DNA of 64,000 bases, taken from the NCBI GenBank assembly GCA_009869945.1, contig WIXG01000173.1, positions 1 through 64,000 on the forward strand, read 5' to 3'. Each line of letters starts with the position of its first letter. The stretch's first letter is position 1. Under the pieces are notes generated by a model. That model ran no database searches and had not been told where the DNA came from. It saw nothing but the letters and a program-made list of their open reading frames with translations. This document shows positions 47,556 to 57,662 of the stretch, piece after piece. The DNA is from Mesaphorura yosii. Its lineage: Eukaryota > Arthropoda > Collembola > Poduromorpha > Tullbergiidae. The position numbers and the translations under genes were made by a program.

Positions 47556-50500
47556 TTATAATTCTGTATGTTCATTTGTTGATGTTTGGCTTGGCTCTAC
47601 TTCCTCATCGGCTTTTGTGCTGTTCTCGGTTGACGACTCTTCCGTGTCGCCCGTCGCAGGCTCCCCGCTGTCGGGCGGAGGCGACTCATTTTGAGTTTCT
47701 GGAGCTGTGCTATTTTTGTCGTCCTCAGCCGTAGTCTTGTTTTCCTTCTTGCTTTCCTTTTCTTTTTCTCTTAACAATTCGGCGGCTTCTCTTTCTTTCT
47801 TCAGTTTCTCAACTCTGGCTTTGTTCAGCATATATTTCACCTGAAATGATTTAACGTTCGTTGCTAAACTAACAAATGATAAAAGAATTATTTGAAGTGA
47901 CTGACCTCTCTGTCCAAAGAGTCAATCTTTTCTGCAATCATTCGAACTGTCAAAACTGGCGTCTGATTTTGTGGCCCGGAGTCTTGCTGAGCCACCATGC
48001 TATTTCTCCAGTCAATCGTTTCTCGGACAAGCTTCTCCAACGTGGTAATTTCGACTTCTGTGAAATATTGTTGGTCTGCGGGCACAGATTTTGAGCTTGC
48101 CAAGAAGCTTTCACTAATATTAAGCATTTTGTCTAAAGCCTGGATCGCATCTGGCCTCTCCTTGTGTTCCCTGAGTCTATCGGTCAAGTCCTTGCTCAGC
48201 TTCTTGAGAGACTTGAATTTTTCTTCATAAACTTCTTTTGTCGCATGAGCACCATCTTCGTACAGCCAATCGGAAATCTGGAAGTACACAACTCAATAAA
48301 AATCAACGAGCTAAAAATTAAAATAAGCTTCTTGCTTCATCAGCCGTTAATTCTTCGCGCTTACCTCAGAGCAAGTCTTCCCAATCGTCTCCCTCTCCTC
48401 CTCAGTTACGAATCTTTCATTTTCAGATGAATACACTTTATCCTGCATTTCTAAGACGAATCCTTCCAAAGAATTTCGTGCCTTCTCCCTCAAAGCTCGG
48501 AGTTTGTCCGCTTCACCCAGTTCATGCAATCTGAAAGTTAACAGGACTCAATCAAAATCTGACCACTGATATTTGAAGTTAAAGATCATTTCATAAGCTT
48601 CATACTTCTTTGAGGACGCCTGGAATTTTTCTCCTTCCAGAGGAGGAACATCCAACACAGTTGTAACAGCTTCAATATTTTCCTTGATTGTGACTAGCTT
48701 TGGTTTCTTCGGAGCGCTTGGAGCTGTTTCATTTTTCTTAGCATCTCCGCTGGTCTCGGTTTCATTCTTAGCTTGCTCTTCACCACTTTCCTTGGACTTT
48801 TCACCTTCGCCGCTTTCGCCTGTCGTAGTATTAGTTTTGTTTTCAGAGCCAGTATCTTCAGGAACTTTCTCGGCTTCCTCTGGCTTTGGCGTTGTTGTTG
48901 TTTCAGATCCTCCTGTTAAAAGCGGAACGTTTTGGTTAGATTATTGGTTACTCAATTCCAGCTACATAAAGTAAGCAATAAGTAAGACATACCGAATAGA
49001 CTGCTAAACGCTGAGCCAATTTTGGACAGCGTATCTGACGCGTCGTCGCCTTCGGCTTCAGTAGAATTCTTTTCGAAGATCGATTCAACCAACGAGAGCG
49101 AGAAAATGCCGCTGTCATCCATACTGAAATGTGCCTTCACGCCCTTGGGTTCAGTCCCGTCGCCTACATGCTTTGCATGGGCGGCTCCAACACCACTGAG
49201 GTCCACTTTTGTAATGTTCGAGGAACCCACGGCCCTATTTAGATACAAACCGTAATTAGAAACTGTTGTTAAAAGACATATAGGCTCCTTGCACTGACCT
49301 TGCTTCCTCAGCTGAGACTTGGAGATCACCGTAACTGACGTAGAAAGTGAAATCATTAACGTGCTTATTGAAGGTGAGGATCTTTTTCTGTGGATACGGG
49401 TTCATGTGAGAAAATAATGTCCGTCTTATAATTTTCAAAGTTTTTGAACCATCCTCGGCTTCCGCTTCTCGTACAAAATCAACCTGCCAGAAAAAGGATC
49501 AGCATCACGCCTCCGAATCCAATAATCACAAGATCAAACAAACAATTCCAAACAGAGCCTCGAACTTACCAAAATTGGAAACAGTACAGCATCCTTCGTA
49601 ATGAACTTTTTGACTTTAAAACCACTGCTGAGATCGGCGCCTTTGTAAACCGCTCCCATTGCAGCAGCCTCATCGGTGTTCAAACTCTTGCCCAGTTCCC
49701 TATTTAGATGTTCTGTCAACTTTTCCTGCACTTTAGGAACTCTGGTTCCAGCTCCAACTAAAATCACTTGGTCGATCAAGTCCATTGTAATGGCTGCATT
49801 ATTCAATGCTTGTTCTATTGGCTTTTTGATACGATCAACCATGTCCGCAAACAGATTCTCAAACTCTTCTCGGTTTACTGGTAGCTTGAAGTCTTTGTCA
49901 TCCAATAGTCCTTCAACCTGTAACAATGAATAAAATCAGTGTTGGTAAGGAAAGGATGTCTCGTTTTTACATCACCAAACTGTGGGAACACGCTGATCGG
50001 ATGCTCACCTGTGCGTTGTGAGCTGTGTTGGCACTAAGAACATTCTTTAGCCTTCCAGCTTCTTTGAAGAGCTTGGCCATGGCTCGGTGATTGGTGAATA
50101 CATCTGTTTTGGTCTTCTTCATCTCGTTGAATGCTTTCGCCAGAAAATCACGCAAGCGCAATTGCAACTCCAAGCCACCCAATGTTCGGTCGTATCTAAA
50201 AGTTCGAAATCAGCATATCAAGTTCCAGGATCCCATACTTAACATATTATATGATTAGTTTAATATATCCTTAGAATCCTTACCCAACACCAAGAATACT
50301 CAGCTGTGGATTTGACTCGACATATCCTTTCTCTTTTGTCTTCACAATTTGATAGCTGACGACAGTTGCAATTGTGCTGGCTGCTCCCATATCATATAAT
50401 AGTATGTTTTGGGCCGTTTCATTGAAGTCGCTTCGTCGGAAAATTCCATAATTCAGTGCAACTGCAAATGTGCAAATCGAAACAATGTTATTCATCTTTC

Positions 50501-51342
50501 ATCTTTCATCTTTCTTTCAAGAATCACGCCATGATTTGAGAGAAATGAATGTCAGTCTCACCAGCAGTATTTGAATTCATAAGTTGTAGAACCTTAATGT
50601 CAGCCAGTTCAGCAGCGTTGAGGACTGCTCGGCGTTCGGCTTGATTGAAGAACGGTGGCACGGTGATTACAGCTTCTTTGACAGGTTGCTTCGTGAAGTC
50701 TTGGGTGTACTCACGACATTTGCTCAGAAGCATTCCAAGTAATTCTTCCGGAGAATATCGAGTCTCGCTGCATTTAAAAGTAGTGTGAGAATTTACAAGC
50801 TCGTTTGAATGAAATTGACTTCGAACTCACGGGTCGTGTTGAAAAGTAACAGTGCCACGGTCTTCGTCGGCAACAATATTATAATAGGGAAATCTCTTCT
50901 GATATAACTTCACCATCGGGTTGTCAATGCTTTTACCGAGCAAATCGGTAAAGTAAAGATACGCGTTGGGCGGAAATCTCACAGCCACATTTAGTGCATC
51001 TTCTCCAATTAGTCTCTCGCCATCCCGGAATGAAACAGCAACCGGTGTTTTCCTCTTTGATTCCTTATTCAAGACAATCTCCATTGGAACTCCGGGCTAA
51101 ATGAAAAGTAGATGAGGATGAGCACTATCAGAAATATAACGATCGTACTTTTAATGACGATCGCATTGTTGATCACTTACCGACACCACGCCAATTTTGA
51201 CCCATTCGGAGCCCAGGTCCACACTCATCACGGCAACTCCTTCCGTTTGACCGCATATTAATACTGTTAAAATTATAGTTGACCATACTAAGGAGAGTGT
51301 AGACATGACTGGAATCCTGGACTTCGAACCCGGCGAAGTCAT
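47556..51342 (-). CDS. Hyou1: Hypoxia up-regulated protein 1 / GRP170, ER Hsp70-family chaperone
   Basis: Large Hsp70-superfamily chaperone of the ER lumen; family members act as nucleotide exchange factors for BiP and as holdases during ER stress. Coding exons, in reading order on the - strand, are 51342-51181, 51096-50831, 50767-50562, 50461-50284, 50195-50009, 49917-49570, 49483-49299, 49234-48993, 48912-48606, 48530-48365, 48277-47906 and 47840-47556. Phases match at every GT-AG junction, giving 967 residues (human about 999). The first ATG of the exon is used; an in-frame ATG at 51306 gives a tighter signal peptide ([16 protein letters not shown]). Landmarks are [13 protein letters not shown] at the start of the ATPase domain, [25 protein letters not shown], and [14 protein letters not shown]. 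An acidic, Ser/Thr-rich loop with N-glycosylation sites precedes the helical C-terminal domain. The C-terminus is HTEL, a KDEL-type retrieval signal. A non-coding 5' exon probably ends at 51450, joined by a 91-nt intron. Confidence 0.95.
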
Positions 51343-51809
51343 CGTCAGGTTTATGGTTCTACGAACCAAAACCACAATACAATATTAAAAAACGAGCAAC
51401 GGGGCATCAGTGGGCAACGAGTAATCTCTAGAACGGTCACTACACTTACCTGACTGAAAATTATGCACCACCTTGCACCGCTCTACTCACTCCACAATCA
51501 CTGCTCGCTGCAGAAATCTTCAATTTATCCTGAACAGCTGCTTCTGTTTCAATTCGGCTCGAATTAATGATTGTAACTTGAAGAAAAAATATAAACTGGG
51601 AATCGAAAGTGTTTAATCGTCCTAATCGAGCACCGGGAATGTGAGATAATTTTCAGCTGTGCCATGTGTCCCTGCGCATGCGATATCTGTAAGTATTTAA
51701 TTACGAATTGGAAATTGACAGGTAAGAACTCTAGTCGAGACTGCGGTAAATACGTTCAATACCATAGAAAAGCATAGAAAAATTCCGACTCTGTACACGC
51801 GTTAAAAGT

Positions 51810-51828
51810 CGTGGGGACTCATCATTGG
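51810..51828 (-). promoter_or_regulatory. Perfect ER-stress response element (ERSE) upstream of HYOU1
   Basis: Read on the HYOU1 strand the site is CCAATGATGAGTCCCCACG, an exact CCAAT-N9-CCACG. In vertebrates this element binds NF-Y plus ATF6/XBP1 and drives HYOU1, BiP and other ER chaperone genes. It lies about 470 bp upstream of the chosen HYOU1 ATG and about 360 bp upstream of the donor of the likely 5' untranslated exon, in the region shared with the divergent RIIa/IQ gene. The match is sequence-level; activity is inferred. Confidence 0.75.
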
Positions 51829-52295: not shown

Positions 52296-53839
52296 ATGGC
52301 TGACCTGAACCTCGCCGACCAACCAGTTGGACCAGTTCTGTATTTTCATGGACAGCGAAAGAAATTCTTTCTCCCCGAAGGCCTCGAGCCATTGCTGGAG
52401 GAAATTGCTGTCGAAGTAAATGACGCTGTAGCTGTCTGAGAATTGAGTCGATCGAGTTACTGTAGGTATCTTAACCCATTGAAACTTCGACTTTGGCTCC
52501 AGGTTCTGAAGCGCAATCCAGAGAATATTTACGAATGCATTACAACCCTGCTGGAGGCAAAGGTGCAAAAAAGGAGTGCCGAAGCTGAACATGAACCTCA
52601 GCAGGTGCTCTCTTCGTATTTCGCATTTGCATTTTGCAAACAATGAACTTGACAATTTACATTTCTCGTGCTCGATTCACTTAGGATCGTCGACATAGTT
52701 GGGAGTGGAGGGTCTGGGTAAGCCTTCTCTTGAAGTAGCCATTGACAAATTGCAACTTTTGTTGTTGGTCAAACGAAAATCTAATACTATTCTAGAGTTC
52801 AGATGTTTCTTCGGTTCTGAATGAGGAGGAGCTACGAACATTTGTAGCTGAATTCAATATTCCGCTCGACGCAGCCGAGCATTTGGCAACCGTAATTCAG
52901 GTACGCTGTCAACGCGTCTGTGTTTTCTGCGTAAAATTTTGTCATGTAATCTTTTGTTTTGGGCTGGACAGGCAGCATGGCGAGGCTTCCATGCAAGGCA
53001 AGACTACAAGAAACTAAGTCGCGAAAGGAAACGGACTCCTGTAAGCTCAAGTTCAATTAGGTTTCTAAGAAACTAAACATTCACAAATATGAATAGGTTT
53101 AATCTATTAACAGTCAAGTCTGTGGGAAGAATGGATCAAGGAAAGCAATTTCGTATTTGAGGGACGCGACATGCTGCAGATCCTCCTTCACTATGGGCAC
53201 ACACGTGCGGAAGCTGATAAAGCCGCCACGAAGGTGTTTATTAACGAGCAAATTCAATCTGCAAAGTACGAACCTGCAGCTGAACGTGTTTTTCACTATG
53301 CTTTCAGATCCAAGCATTGTTTCGAGGTCACCTCACACGAAGGCTACTACATGCTCCTGCACATCCTGGAAAATGGACTTCCGAACTGTTACGCGAAATG
53401 GGCATCACGCGTGATGAAGCTCATAATCAAGCCACCGTCATTCAAAGCAATTTAAGTCGTAAGCAGTTGACAGGCCTGGAACAAAATTTGACAAATGTAA
53501 GTGGATCCCCAAAGTATCGGCTGCTCGAATATTTACTAACAGACTGTATTTTTAAAGCCTCCAGACATAATAGCCAAAGACGTCAAGTTCGAGGCAGAAC
53601 GGGAAAAATCTAAAAATGCAGATATGTCCTCATATAAAATGAGAGACGTTGAAGAAATTGGTGGAGAGGACGAAGACGAATTTGATGAAGACGGTCCAGT
53701 ACCTCCAACTGCTAGCCAGTACATTTTTCTGGATAATGAATCGGACGAAGATGAAGAGCAGGTTGAACCAGCGTCTGAGAAGGAATCTGTTCAAATGCAG
53801 CTGCAGCATGAGGAAGTTGAGGAGGACGGCGAGGAATGA
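52296..53839 (+). CDS. RIIa-domain protein with IQ repeats (sperm/cilium type, SPA17-like)
   Basis: Probable axonemal or sperm-tail scaffold that docks to AKAPs through an RIIa domain and binds calmodulin through IQ motifs. Coding exons are 52296-52415, 52503-52604, 52685-52717, 52796-52900, 52972-53040, 53114-53233, 53308-53496 and 53558-53839. Every intron is phase 0, and the total is 1020 nt (339 residues). Residues about 29-74 form the RIIa dimerisation/docking domain (FFLPEGLEPLLEEIAVE, then VLKRNPENIYECI). IQ motifs follow at about 118-130 (VIQAAWRGFHARQ) and 181-197 (ATKIQALFRGHLTRRLL), plus a degenerate one at about 225-240. Each is preceded by a helix of the form L-x-x-x-x-G-x-T-x-x-E-A. 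The tail (about 247-339) is highly acidic. The order RIIa then IQ matches SPA17; the multiple IQ units and acidic tail are extra. The 33-nt third exon is the least certain part. An AATAAA lies at 53866-53871. Confidence 0.8.
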
Positions 53840-55843: not shown

Positions 55844-56488
55844 ATGAAGATCAAGGTCGAAATTTGGTCAGACATTATTTGCCCGTGGTGCTACATTGGA
55901 AAACGTAGATTCGAGTGTGCTCTGAAGCAGTTCCAACATCGTGACAAAATTGAGGTTCAATGGCGAAGTTATGAGCTGTATCCAGATCTCCCAAAAGGAG
56001 TGACATCACCGGCATTGGAGTTCTTCGTAAAGCACAAGAACGTCACGGAAGCTCAGGCGAGAAACATATTTCAGGAAATAACCAAGACCGCGGCGAAAGA
56101 GGGACTGAAGTTTAATTACGACAAAGCAGTACGCGCAAGCACATTCGACGCCCACCGACTAATTCATTTCGCGGATCAGTCTAATAAAGGTGATGAGATG
56201 AAGGAGCGCTTGCTAGCAGGATTCTTCGAGCGAGGGGAATCACTCGCCGATGTCGACACCTTAGTGACGATGGCGTCAGATGTGGGACTTGACGCAACGA
56301 ATGCCAGGAAGATGCTCCAATCAGATGATTTAAGCAATGCAGTCAGGAAAGACGAAGTCAACGCCAAGAATTTAGGAATCACCGGTGTACCACATTTCTT
56401 GATTAATGGAAAGTACCAAATATCCGGAGCGCAATCGCCTGAAACCATTTTAAAGATCTTGGAAAAGGCAGCGGCAGCGAGCGACTGA
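55844..56488 (+). CDS. FrnE-like DsbA-family thiol oxidoreductase, copy 1
   Basis: Single-exon gene of 214 residues in the DsbA-like thioredoxin superfamily, FrnE subgroup (relatives are bacterial FrnE and 2-hydroxychromene-2-carboxylate isomerase-type proteins). The thioredoxin strand VEIWSDIICPWCYIGKRR carries a CPWC redox motif at residues 13-16; a helical insertion follows; the cis-proline loop TGVPHFLING lies near the C-terminus. No signal peptide is seen, so it is probably cytosolic. The physiological substrate is unknown; family members do disulfide or glutathione-type chemistry. An AATAAA at 56561-56566 and a TATA-like box upstream suggest a normal eukaryotic transcription unit. The absence of introns, when all neighbours have several, and the bacterial character suggest old horizontal transfer followed by duplication. 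The domain call is firm; origin and substrate are inference. Confidence 0.85.
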   Translation: MKIKVEIWSDIICPWCYIGKRRFECALKQFQHRDKIEVQWRSYELYPDLPKGVTSPALEFFVKHKNVTEAQARNIFQEITKTAAKEGLKFNYDKAVRASTFDAHRLIHFADQSNKGDEMKERLLAGFFERGESLADVDTLVTMASDVGLDATNARKMLQSDDLSNAVRKDEVNAKNLGITGVPHFLINGKYQISGAQSPETILKILEKAAAASD

Positions 56489-57020: not shown

Positions 57021-57662
57021 ATGACGATCAAGGTCGAGATTTGGTCAGACATCGCGTGCCCATTTTGCTATCTTGGAAAACGCCAGCTTGAGAGTGCCTT
57101 GCAGCAATTTGAACACCGAGACCAAGTTGAGATCCTGTGGCGCAGCTTTGAGCTTAACTCCAACATACCAAAGGGGAGTAGTACGTCCGTCCTGGAATTT
57201 CTGATGGCACACAAGGGCATCCCAGAAAATAGAGCTAAGTTACTCTTCCAGGACGTGACGCGAACTGCTGCGAAAGAAGGGCTGAAGTTCGACTTCGACA
57301 AGGCTCTGCATGGGAACACATTTGACGGTCATCGACTGGTGCATTTCGCAAGCGAGTTTGGTAAGGGCAACGAAATGAAGGAGCGACTGTTTTCTGGCTA
57401 TTTCGAACGAGGAGAGTCTGTTGCAAATGTCAAGACGCTGGCGGCCATGGCCTCGGACGTCGGCCTCGATGGGAGCAAGGCAAAGGCCATGCTTGAGTCA
57501 GACGCCTTTTGCGACGTGGTCAGGAACGATGAACAGCGCGCAAAGCAGTTGGGAGTTACCGGTGTGCCTTTCTTCTTAATCAACGGGAAGCATCAATTAT
57601 CAGGAGCACAATCACCAGAAGCCATTCTGAAGCTGCTGCAGAAGGCGTCAGCGGAGACATGA
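57021..57662 (+). CDS. FrnE-like DsbA-family thiol oxidoreductase, copy 2
   Basis: Single-exon gene of 213 residues, a tandem paralog of the gene 530 bp upstream. The two proteins align end to end without large gaps and share well over half of their residues. The start chosen (MTIKVEIWSD) aligns exactly with the first copy. The frame stays open for another 157 codons upstream to 56550, but that stretch overlaps the poly(A) signal of copy 1 and has no family resemblance, so it is treated as chance. The active site is CPFC at residues 13-16 (CPWC in copy 1), a change at the first position between the cysteines that may alter redox potential. The cis-proline loop is TGVPFFLING. The DNA is more GC-rich than in copy 1, with many GCC/GTC/CTC codons around 57430-57500. 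The substrate is unknown. Confidence 0.85.
   Translation: MTIKVEIWSDIACPFCYLGKRQLESALQQFEHRDQVEILWRSFELNSNIPKGSSTSVLEFLMAHKGIPENRAKLLFQDVTRTAAKEGLKFDFDKALHGNTFDGHRLVHFASEFGKGNEMKERLFSGYFERGESVANVKTLAAMASDVGLDGSKAKAMLESDAFCDVVRNDEQRAKQLGVTGVPFFLINGKHQLSGAQSPEAILKLLQKASAET

Follow-up and report, generated by a model that had tools for sequence, protein, structure and literature searches.

A candidate ER stress response element upstream of a predicted HYOU1 gene, with exact counterparts at predicted BiP and GRP94 genes

Results

The window, a 64,000-nucleotide stretch of Mesaphorura yosii DNA (contig WIXG01000173.1, positions 1 to 64,000), carries on its minus strand a complete gene, which we take to be HYOU1/GRP170 from its likeness to human HYOU1; Pfam itself reports only HSP70, across residues 27 to 772 (E = 4.5e-91). 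The predicted protein has a signal-peptide-like N-terminal start and would be 12 residues longer if translation began at the in-frame ATG at 51342. Its C-terminal tail is HTEL (47556 to 47570, minus strand), which is not a common KDEL-like tail and may resemble an ER-retention tail; a comparison of the C-terminal part with solved structures found nothing. The 5′ leader probably contains an intron, to judge from a donor-like CAG/GTAAGTG at 51449 and a CGTAG acceptor-like site that ends at 51359. The coordinates of these features are collected in Table 1.

Table 1. Features of the HYOU1 locus in the 64-kb window
Feature	Positions	Strand	Basis
HYOU1/GRP170 coding region (12 exons, 955 aa)	47556..51306	minus	Exon joining, GT/AG at every junction
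Likely intron in HYOU1 5′ leader	51359..51449	minus	Splice-site-like sequence alone
ERSE-I, CCAAT-N9-CCACG, CCAATGATGAGTCCCCACG	51810..51828	minus	Sole exact match in the 64-kb window
CCACG half, presumed ATF6/XBP1 site	51810..51814	minus	Sequence; ATF6-like bZIP encoded at C129
CCAAT half, presumed NF-Y site	51824..51828	minus	Sequence; NF-YA encoded at 2 loci
Divergent RIIa-domain gene	52296..53839	plus	First two exons joined; Pfam RIIa E = 1.3e-5; open frame to 53839

The gene divergent from HYOU1 encodes an RIIa domain, which occurs in PKA-anchored and in sperm or cilium proteins; the assignment of its last exon is approximate. The two ATGs are 989 bp apart. Also on the plus strand are two adjacent intronless DsbA-family genes (55844 to 56488 and 57021 to 57662; Pfam DSBA E = 1.1e-43 and 1.3e-45), whose CPWC and CPFC motifs give them the look of FrnE-type oxidoreductases from bacteria. 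Prokaryote genomes scanned with the first gene yielded no relative, a result that proves nothing either way. One kinase exon in the window closely resembles human DYRK1A (E = 2.1e-58), as would be expected of an animal.

NF-Y prefers CCAAT boxes with the flanks RCCAATSR. The original prediction placed an exact ER stress response element (ERSE), whose consensus CCAAT-N9-CCACG and cognate factors have been described (PMC5890977, PMC3645738), in the 5′ region of HYOU1, and both the match and its placement hold. The element reads on the strand that encodes HYOU1 and stands 503 bp before the ATG (467 bp if the ATG at 51342 is used); the inferred first exon ends 359 bp away from it. Its CCAAT half is flanked by AA and GA, which fits the NF-Y consensus. 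Shuffles of the window gave a mean of 0.05 exact matches, with at least one match in 5 of 100 shuffles. Neither ERSE-II nor the UPRE (TGACGTG plus G, T, or A) was found between 50001 and 53000.

A second perfect ERSE, CCAATCAGGAGAATCCACG, lies at C195:93465-93483, 433 bp before the ATG of an HSP70 gene and on that gene's own strand. The central exon of this gene matched solved BiP with E = 3e-151, against about 1e-102 or worse for the other HSP70s; it has a signal-peptide-like start, and its last residues are KDEL. From these characters we identify it as the predicted BiP gene. The genome contains 15 HSP90 matches, among which the first matched exon at C376 had 74% identity to a piece of human GRP94 (C58, 60%; C32, 51%; best stretches), and we assign the C376 gene as the predicted GRP94. 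A third perfect ERSE, CCAATCAGAGCGCACCACG, occupies C376:11251-11269. It lies past the first matched exon of GRP94, at a distance of 883 bp and in the orientation opposite to the gene; it may occupy an intronic position, or another gene may lie between it and GRP94. Stop codons within some of the matches at C376, BiP, and C58 are most simply explained as read-through of short introns, an explanation that for C376 is a presumption. In mammalian ERSEs, GGC occupies the middle of N9, which is not the case here: the middle is GAG in the HYOU1 and BiP elements, both of which are followed by ACT, and something other than GAG in the GRP94 element.

NF-YA matches were found at two loci (C149:119437-119604 and C81:118096-118260), from which the organism is predicted to encode NF-Y. 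The two are separate NF-YA-type loci in one invertebrate genome. Of 11 bZIP matches, 10 of them over the cut-off, only that at C129 matched a piece of human ATF6 (53% over 62 residues), making it the ATF6-like candidate; neither a membrane anchor nor cleavage sites were seen in it. The recurrence of the element at BiP and GRP94, with NF-YA and an ATF6-like bZIP both encoded, supports the proposal that NF-Y/ATF6 logic reaches this lineage. The CCAAT half might instead serve by itself as a basal NF-Y promoter box, with CCACG incidental; the flanks and the encoded NF-YA would fit this, but the CCACG half appears again at the exact spacing at both BiP and GRP94, and we regard this as the least probable of the explanations considered.

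We scanned the whole genome (93,006,257 bases, or 93.0 Mb, in 1,127 contigs) for the bare motif CCAAT-N9-CCACG and found 139 copies on both strands, the HYOU1 element being one. An assembly of this size is smaller than expected of a vertebrate. The same half sites at spacings of 0 to 30 gave 4,705 matches, and the N9 spacing (139 copies) was not enriched, the other 30 spacings averaging 152.2 copies (Poisson P[≤139] = 0.15). This counts against an extensive ERSE regulon, and nothing is proved by the motif on its own; we therefore dropped genome-wide spacing as proof of function. A control with the backwards pattern (60 versus 139 copies) was also set aside as misleading for the bare motif, since the order of bases differs. 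Half sites with zero gap, CCAATCCACG, made up 6 of the 100 matches listed out of the 4,705, whereas an even spread over the 31 spacings would give about 3.

Requiring NF-Y-quality flanks made the element rare: the strict form RCCAATSR-N7-CCACG occurs at 13 sites in the genome, all listed, and HYOU1, BiP, and GRP94 account for 3 of them. The form as such is not clearly enriched (13 versus 8 for its backwards control). We estimated how often at least two further sites would fall in the flanks of 19 loci by chance, excluding HYOU1 as the starting site. The loci were those of BiP and GRP94, the two of the calnexin/calreticulin family, MANF, and 14 contigs on which thioredoxin-domain matches lie. 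With 1-kb flanks, the chance was 3e-6 for the strict form, which was itself chosen after inspection of the HYOU1 and BiP flanks and the GRP94 CCAATCA, although the consensus comes from work on NF-Y. With 2-kb flanks and a fivefold factor for promoters, the most conservative combination used, it rose to 3e-4. The corresponding values for the bare motif were 3.9e-4 and 0.033, and an earlier run with 12 genes and 1 kb had given 1.2e-6 and 1.6e-4.

These numbers bear on the possibility that the HYOU1 site is simply one of the 139 background copies that happened to fall in a 5′ region. The unenriched N9 spacing among 31 spacings is what chance would produce, and strict sites do arise randomly, as shown by one at C4 inside a Peptidase C54 (ATG4) exon. 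At the genome's own rate, however, only 0.0015 copies are expected per kb, in agreement with the original statement that a match within less than 1 kb is unlikely by chance, and the element is found again at the two other GRP genes, which with HYOU1 hold 3 of the 13 strict sites. We consider a chance origin improbable, while still the most serious competitor. An otherwise ordinary bare motif is rescued by its location, because the same perfect element stands at BiP and near GRP94.

Among the 10 remaining strict sites, we inspected the neighborhoods of two, C4 and C9; no family was found in the one frame scanned at C9. Positions were listed for 100 of the 139 bare copies, covering contigs up to C388. 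Eight bare-motif loci were fetched, and 10 open frames from seven of them were scanned. Two frames (at L003) were Peptidase C54 and one (at L008) was FGAR-AT; seven had no family, and no ER domain appeared in these 10 frames.

Control loci were scanned for perfect ERSEs, first in 12 of 14 fetched stretches and then in all 14 (134,419 bases), where the only one was that of BiP. The set included the two NF-YA loci, two calnexin/calreticulin-family loci (C76 and C391), and nine other HSP70 loci (C218, C59, C83, C272, C146, C106, C554, C468, and C669), the scanned portion of the HSP70 matches, which extend to further contigs; the 5′ flank at C106 was only about 450 bp. The HSP70 at C218 ends in EEVD, as cytosolic HSP70 does. 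Many calnexin/calreticulin-family genes use ERSEs in mammals. Neither locus of this family had a perfect ERSE here, nor, in the 12 stretches, a one-mismatch ERSE within 1 kb before the gene. Those stretches held four one-mismatch ERSEs: one at L050:373, which follows the C76 gene on its downstream side; one at L052:8216, which is of the CCACA form and lies upstream of the C218 HSP70 gene by about 4.3 kb; and two more at L062:1554 and L062:3429. Near 26 thioredoxin-domain matches and MANF (C773), no strict site was found except that at C4, which is within the ATG4 exon and lies downstream of a weak thioredoxin match at a distance of 4.6 kb.

Since the ERSE is also 467 bp from the ATG of the RIIa-domain gene, it could act mainly or additionally on that gene as part of a shared two-way promoter. 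A precedent is the mouse CRELD2-ALG12 pair, in which an ERSE likewise lies between divergent genes; in the available portion of that report, the ERSE region could drive a heterologous reporter whichever way it faced, and the mRNAs of both genes increased (PMC3091781). The mouse genes, both of them ER related, are separated by less than 400 bp, whereas here the partner carries an RIIa domain across the wider interval given above. The mouse ERSE drove mainly one promoter in reporters even so, the ALG12 promoter responding little and being held down by suppressive sites, as far as that portion describes it (PMC3091781). Sharing of the element with the RIIa gene is therefore possible but is not to be assumed. 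The neighbor is not an ER protein by domain, and the BiP and GRP94 elements point to HYOU1 as the target; we judge the two-way reading very unlikely, and the earlier suggestion that the divergent neighbor may be stress linked is unsupported, as no ER feature was found in it.

Discussion

Taken together, the data are best explained if the motif is a working ERSE-I of HYOU1, bound by NF-Y plus ATF6/XBP1, to which we assign a probability of about 0.78. By analogy with the mammalian system, NF-Y would occupy CCAAT; once unfolded proteins accumulate in the ER, CCACG nine bases away would be bound by ATF6 in its cleaved form or XBP1 in its spliced form, and the bound factor would join NF-Y and raise transcription of HYOU1 together with BiP and GRP94. 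The sequence itself shows the element, its gene, its recurrence, its rarity with NF-Y-quality flanks, and the encoded factors, whereas the binding of NF-Y and a bZIP, the induction by stress, the start site, and the acting bZIP are inferred. Against a working ERSE weigh the calnexin/calreticulin-family genes that have no element, the opposite orientation of the GRP94 site, the unenriched N9 spacing, and the strict form's own lack of clear enrichment.

An ERSE is known at mammalian HYOU1 from the accessible part of one report (PMC8107106), and the site described here is probably a known element type in another lineage; the interest lies in the recurrence at three genes and not in the single site. 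Mammalian ERSE-I at GRP78, GRP94, and HYOU1/ORP150 has the same 10 fixed bases, 9-base spacing, and three target genes; one copy per gene was found here, whereas mammalian GRP promoters have several, according to the portion available (PMC5890977).

Comparisons with other systems, each drawn from the available portions of the papers, show both likeness and divergence. Caenorhabditis elegans hsp-4, likewise a BiP gene of an invertebrate, combines half sites of the NF-Y type and the XBP-1/ATF-6 type, but its elements are ERSE-II-like (ATTGG-N6-CCACA) and depart from both consensus forms, while those reported here are exact ERSE-I (PMC6448932). The C. elegans manf-1 promoter is described as having partial ERSE-II matches (PMC6095968). 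The plant pERSE, CCAAT-N10-CACG, also pairs NF-Y with a membrane-released bZIP at ER stress genes; its consensus is without the first C of CCACG, and bZIP28/bZIP60 take the place of ATF6/XBP1 (PMC3645738). The role of Drosophila ATF6 in the unfolded protein response (UPR) was termed uncharacterized in 2016 in the text available (PMC4790953), and the corresponding part of a shrimp paper mentions the ERSE in general terms only (PMC3634759). In searches of open-licence literature, we found no report of a perfect ERSE at invertebrate BiP, GRP94, and HYOU1 together, which is weak evidence of novelty, as subscription papers lie mostly outside that literature.

More tentatively, and with less likelihood than not, the exact mammalian ERSE with NF-Y flanks may represent the ancestral animal control of BiP, GRP94, and GRP170, kept here as a minimal NF-Y/ATF6 regulon and drifted in C. 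elegans. If the element works, the mammalian ER-chaperone cis-code, exact in its bases and in its 9-base spacing, would predate vertebrates, and the same three genes would still be marked by it in a compact genome. These genes would then form a regulon that is small and open to testing, in which the evolution of the ATF6 branch could be studied in comparison with C. elegans and Drosophila.
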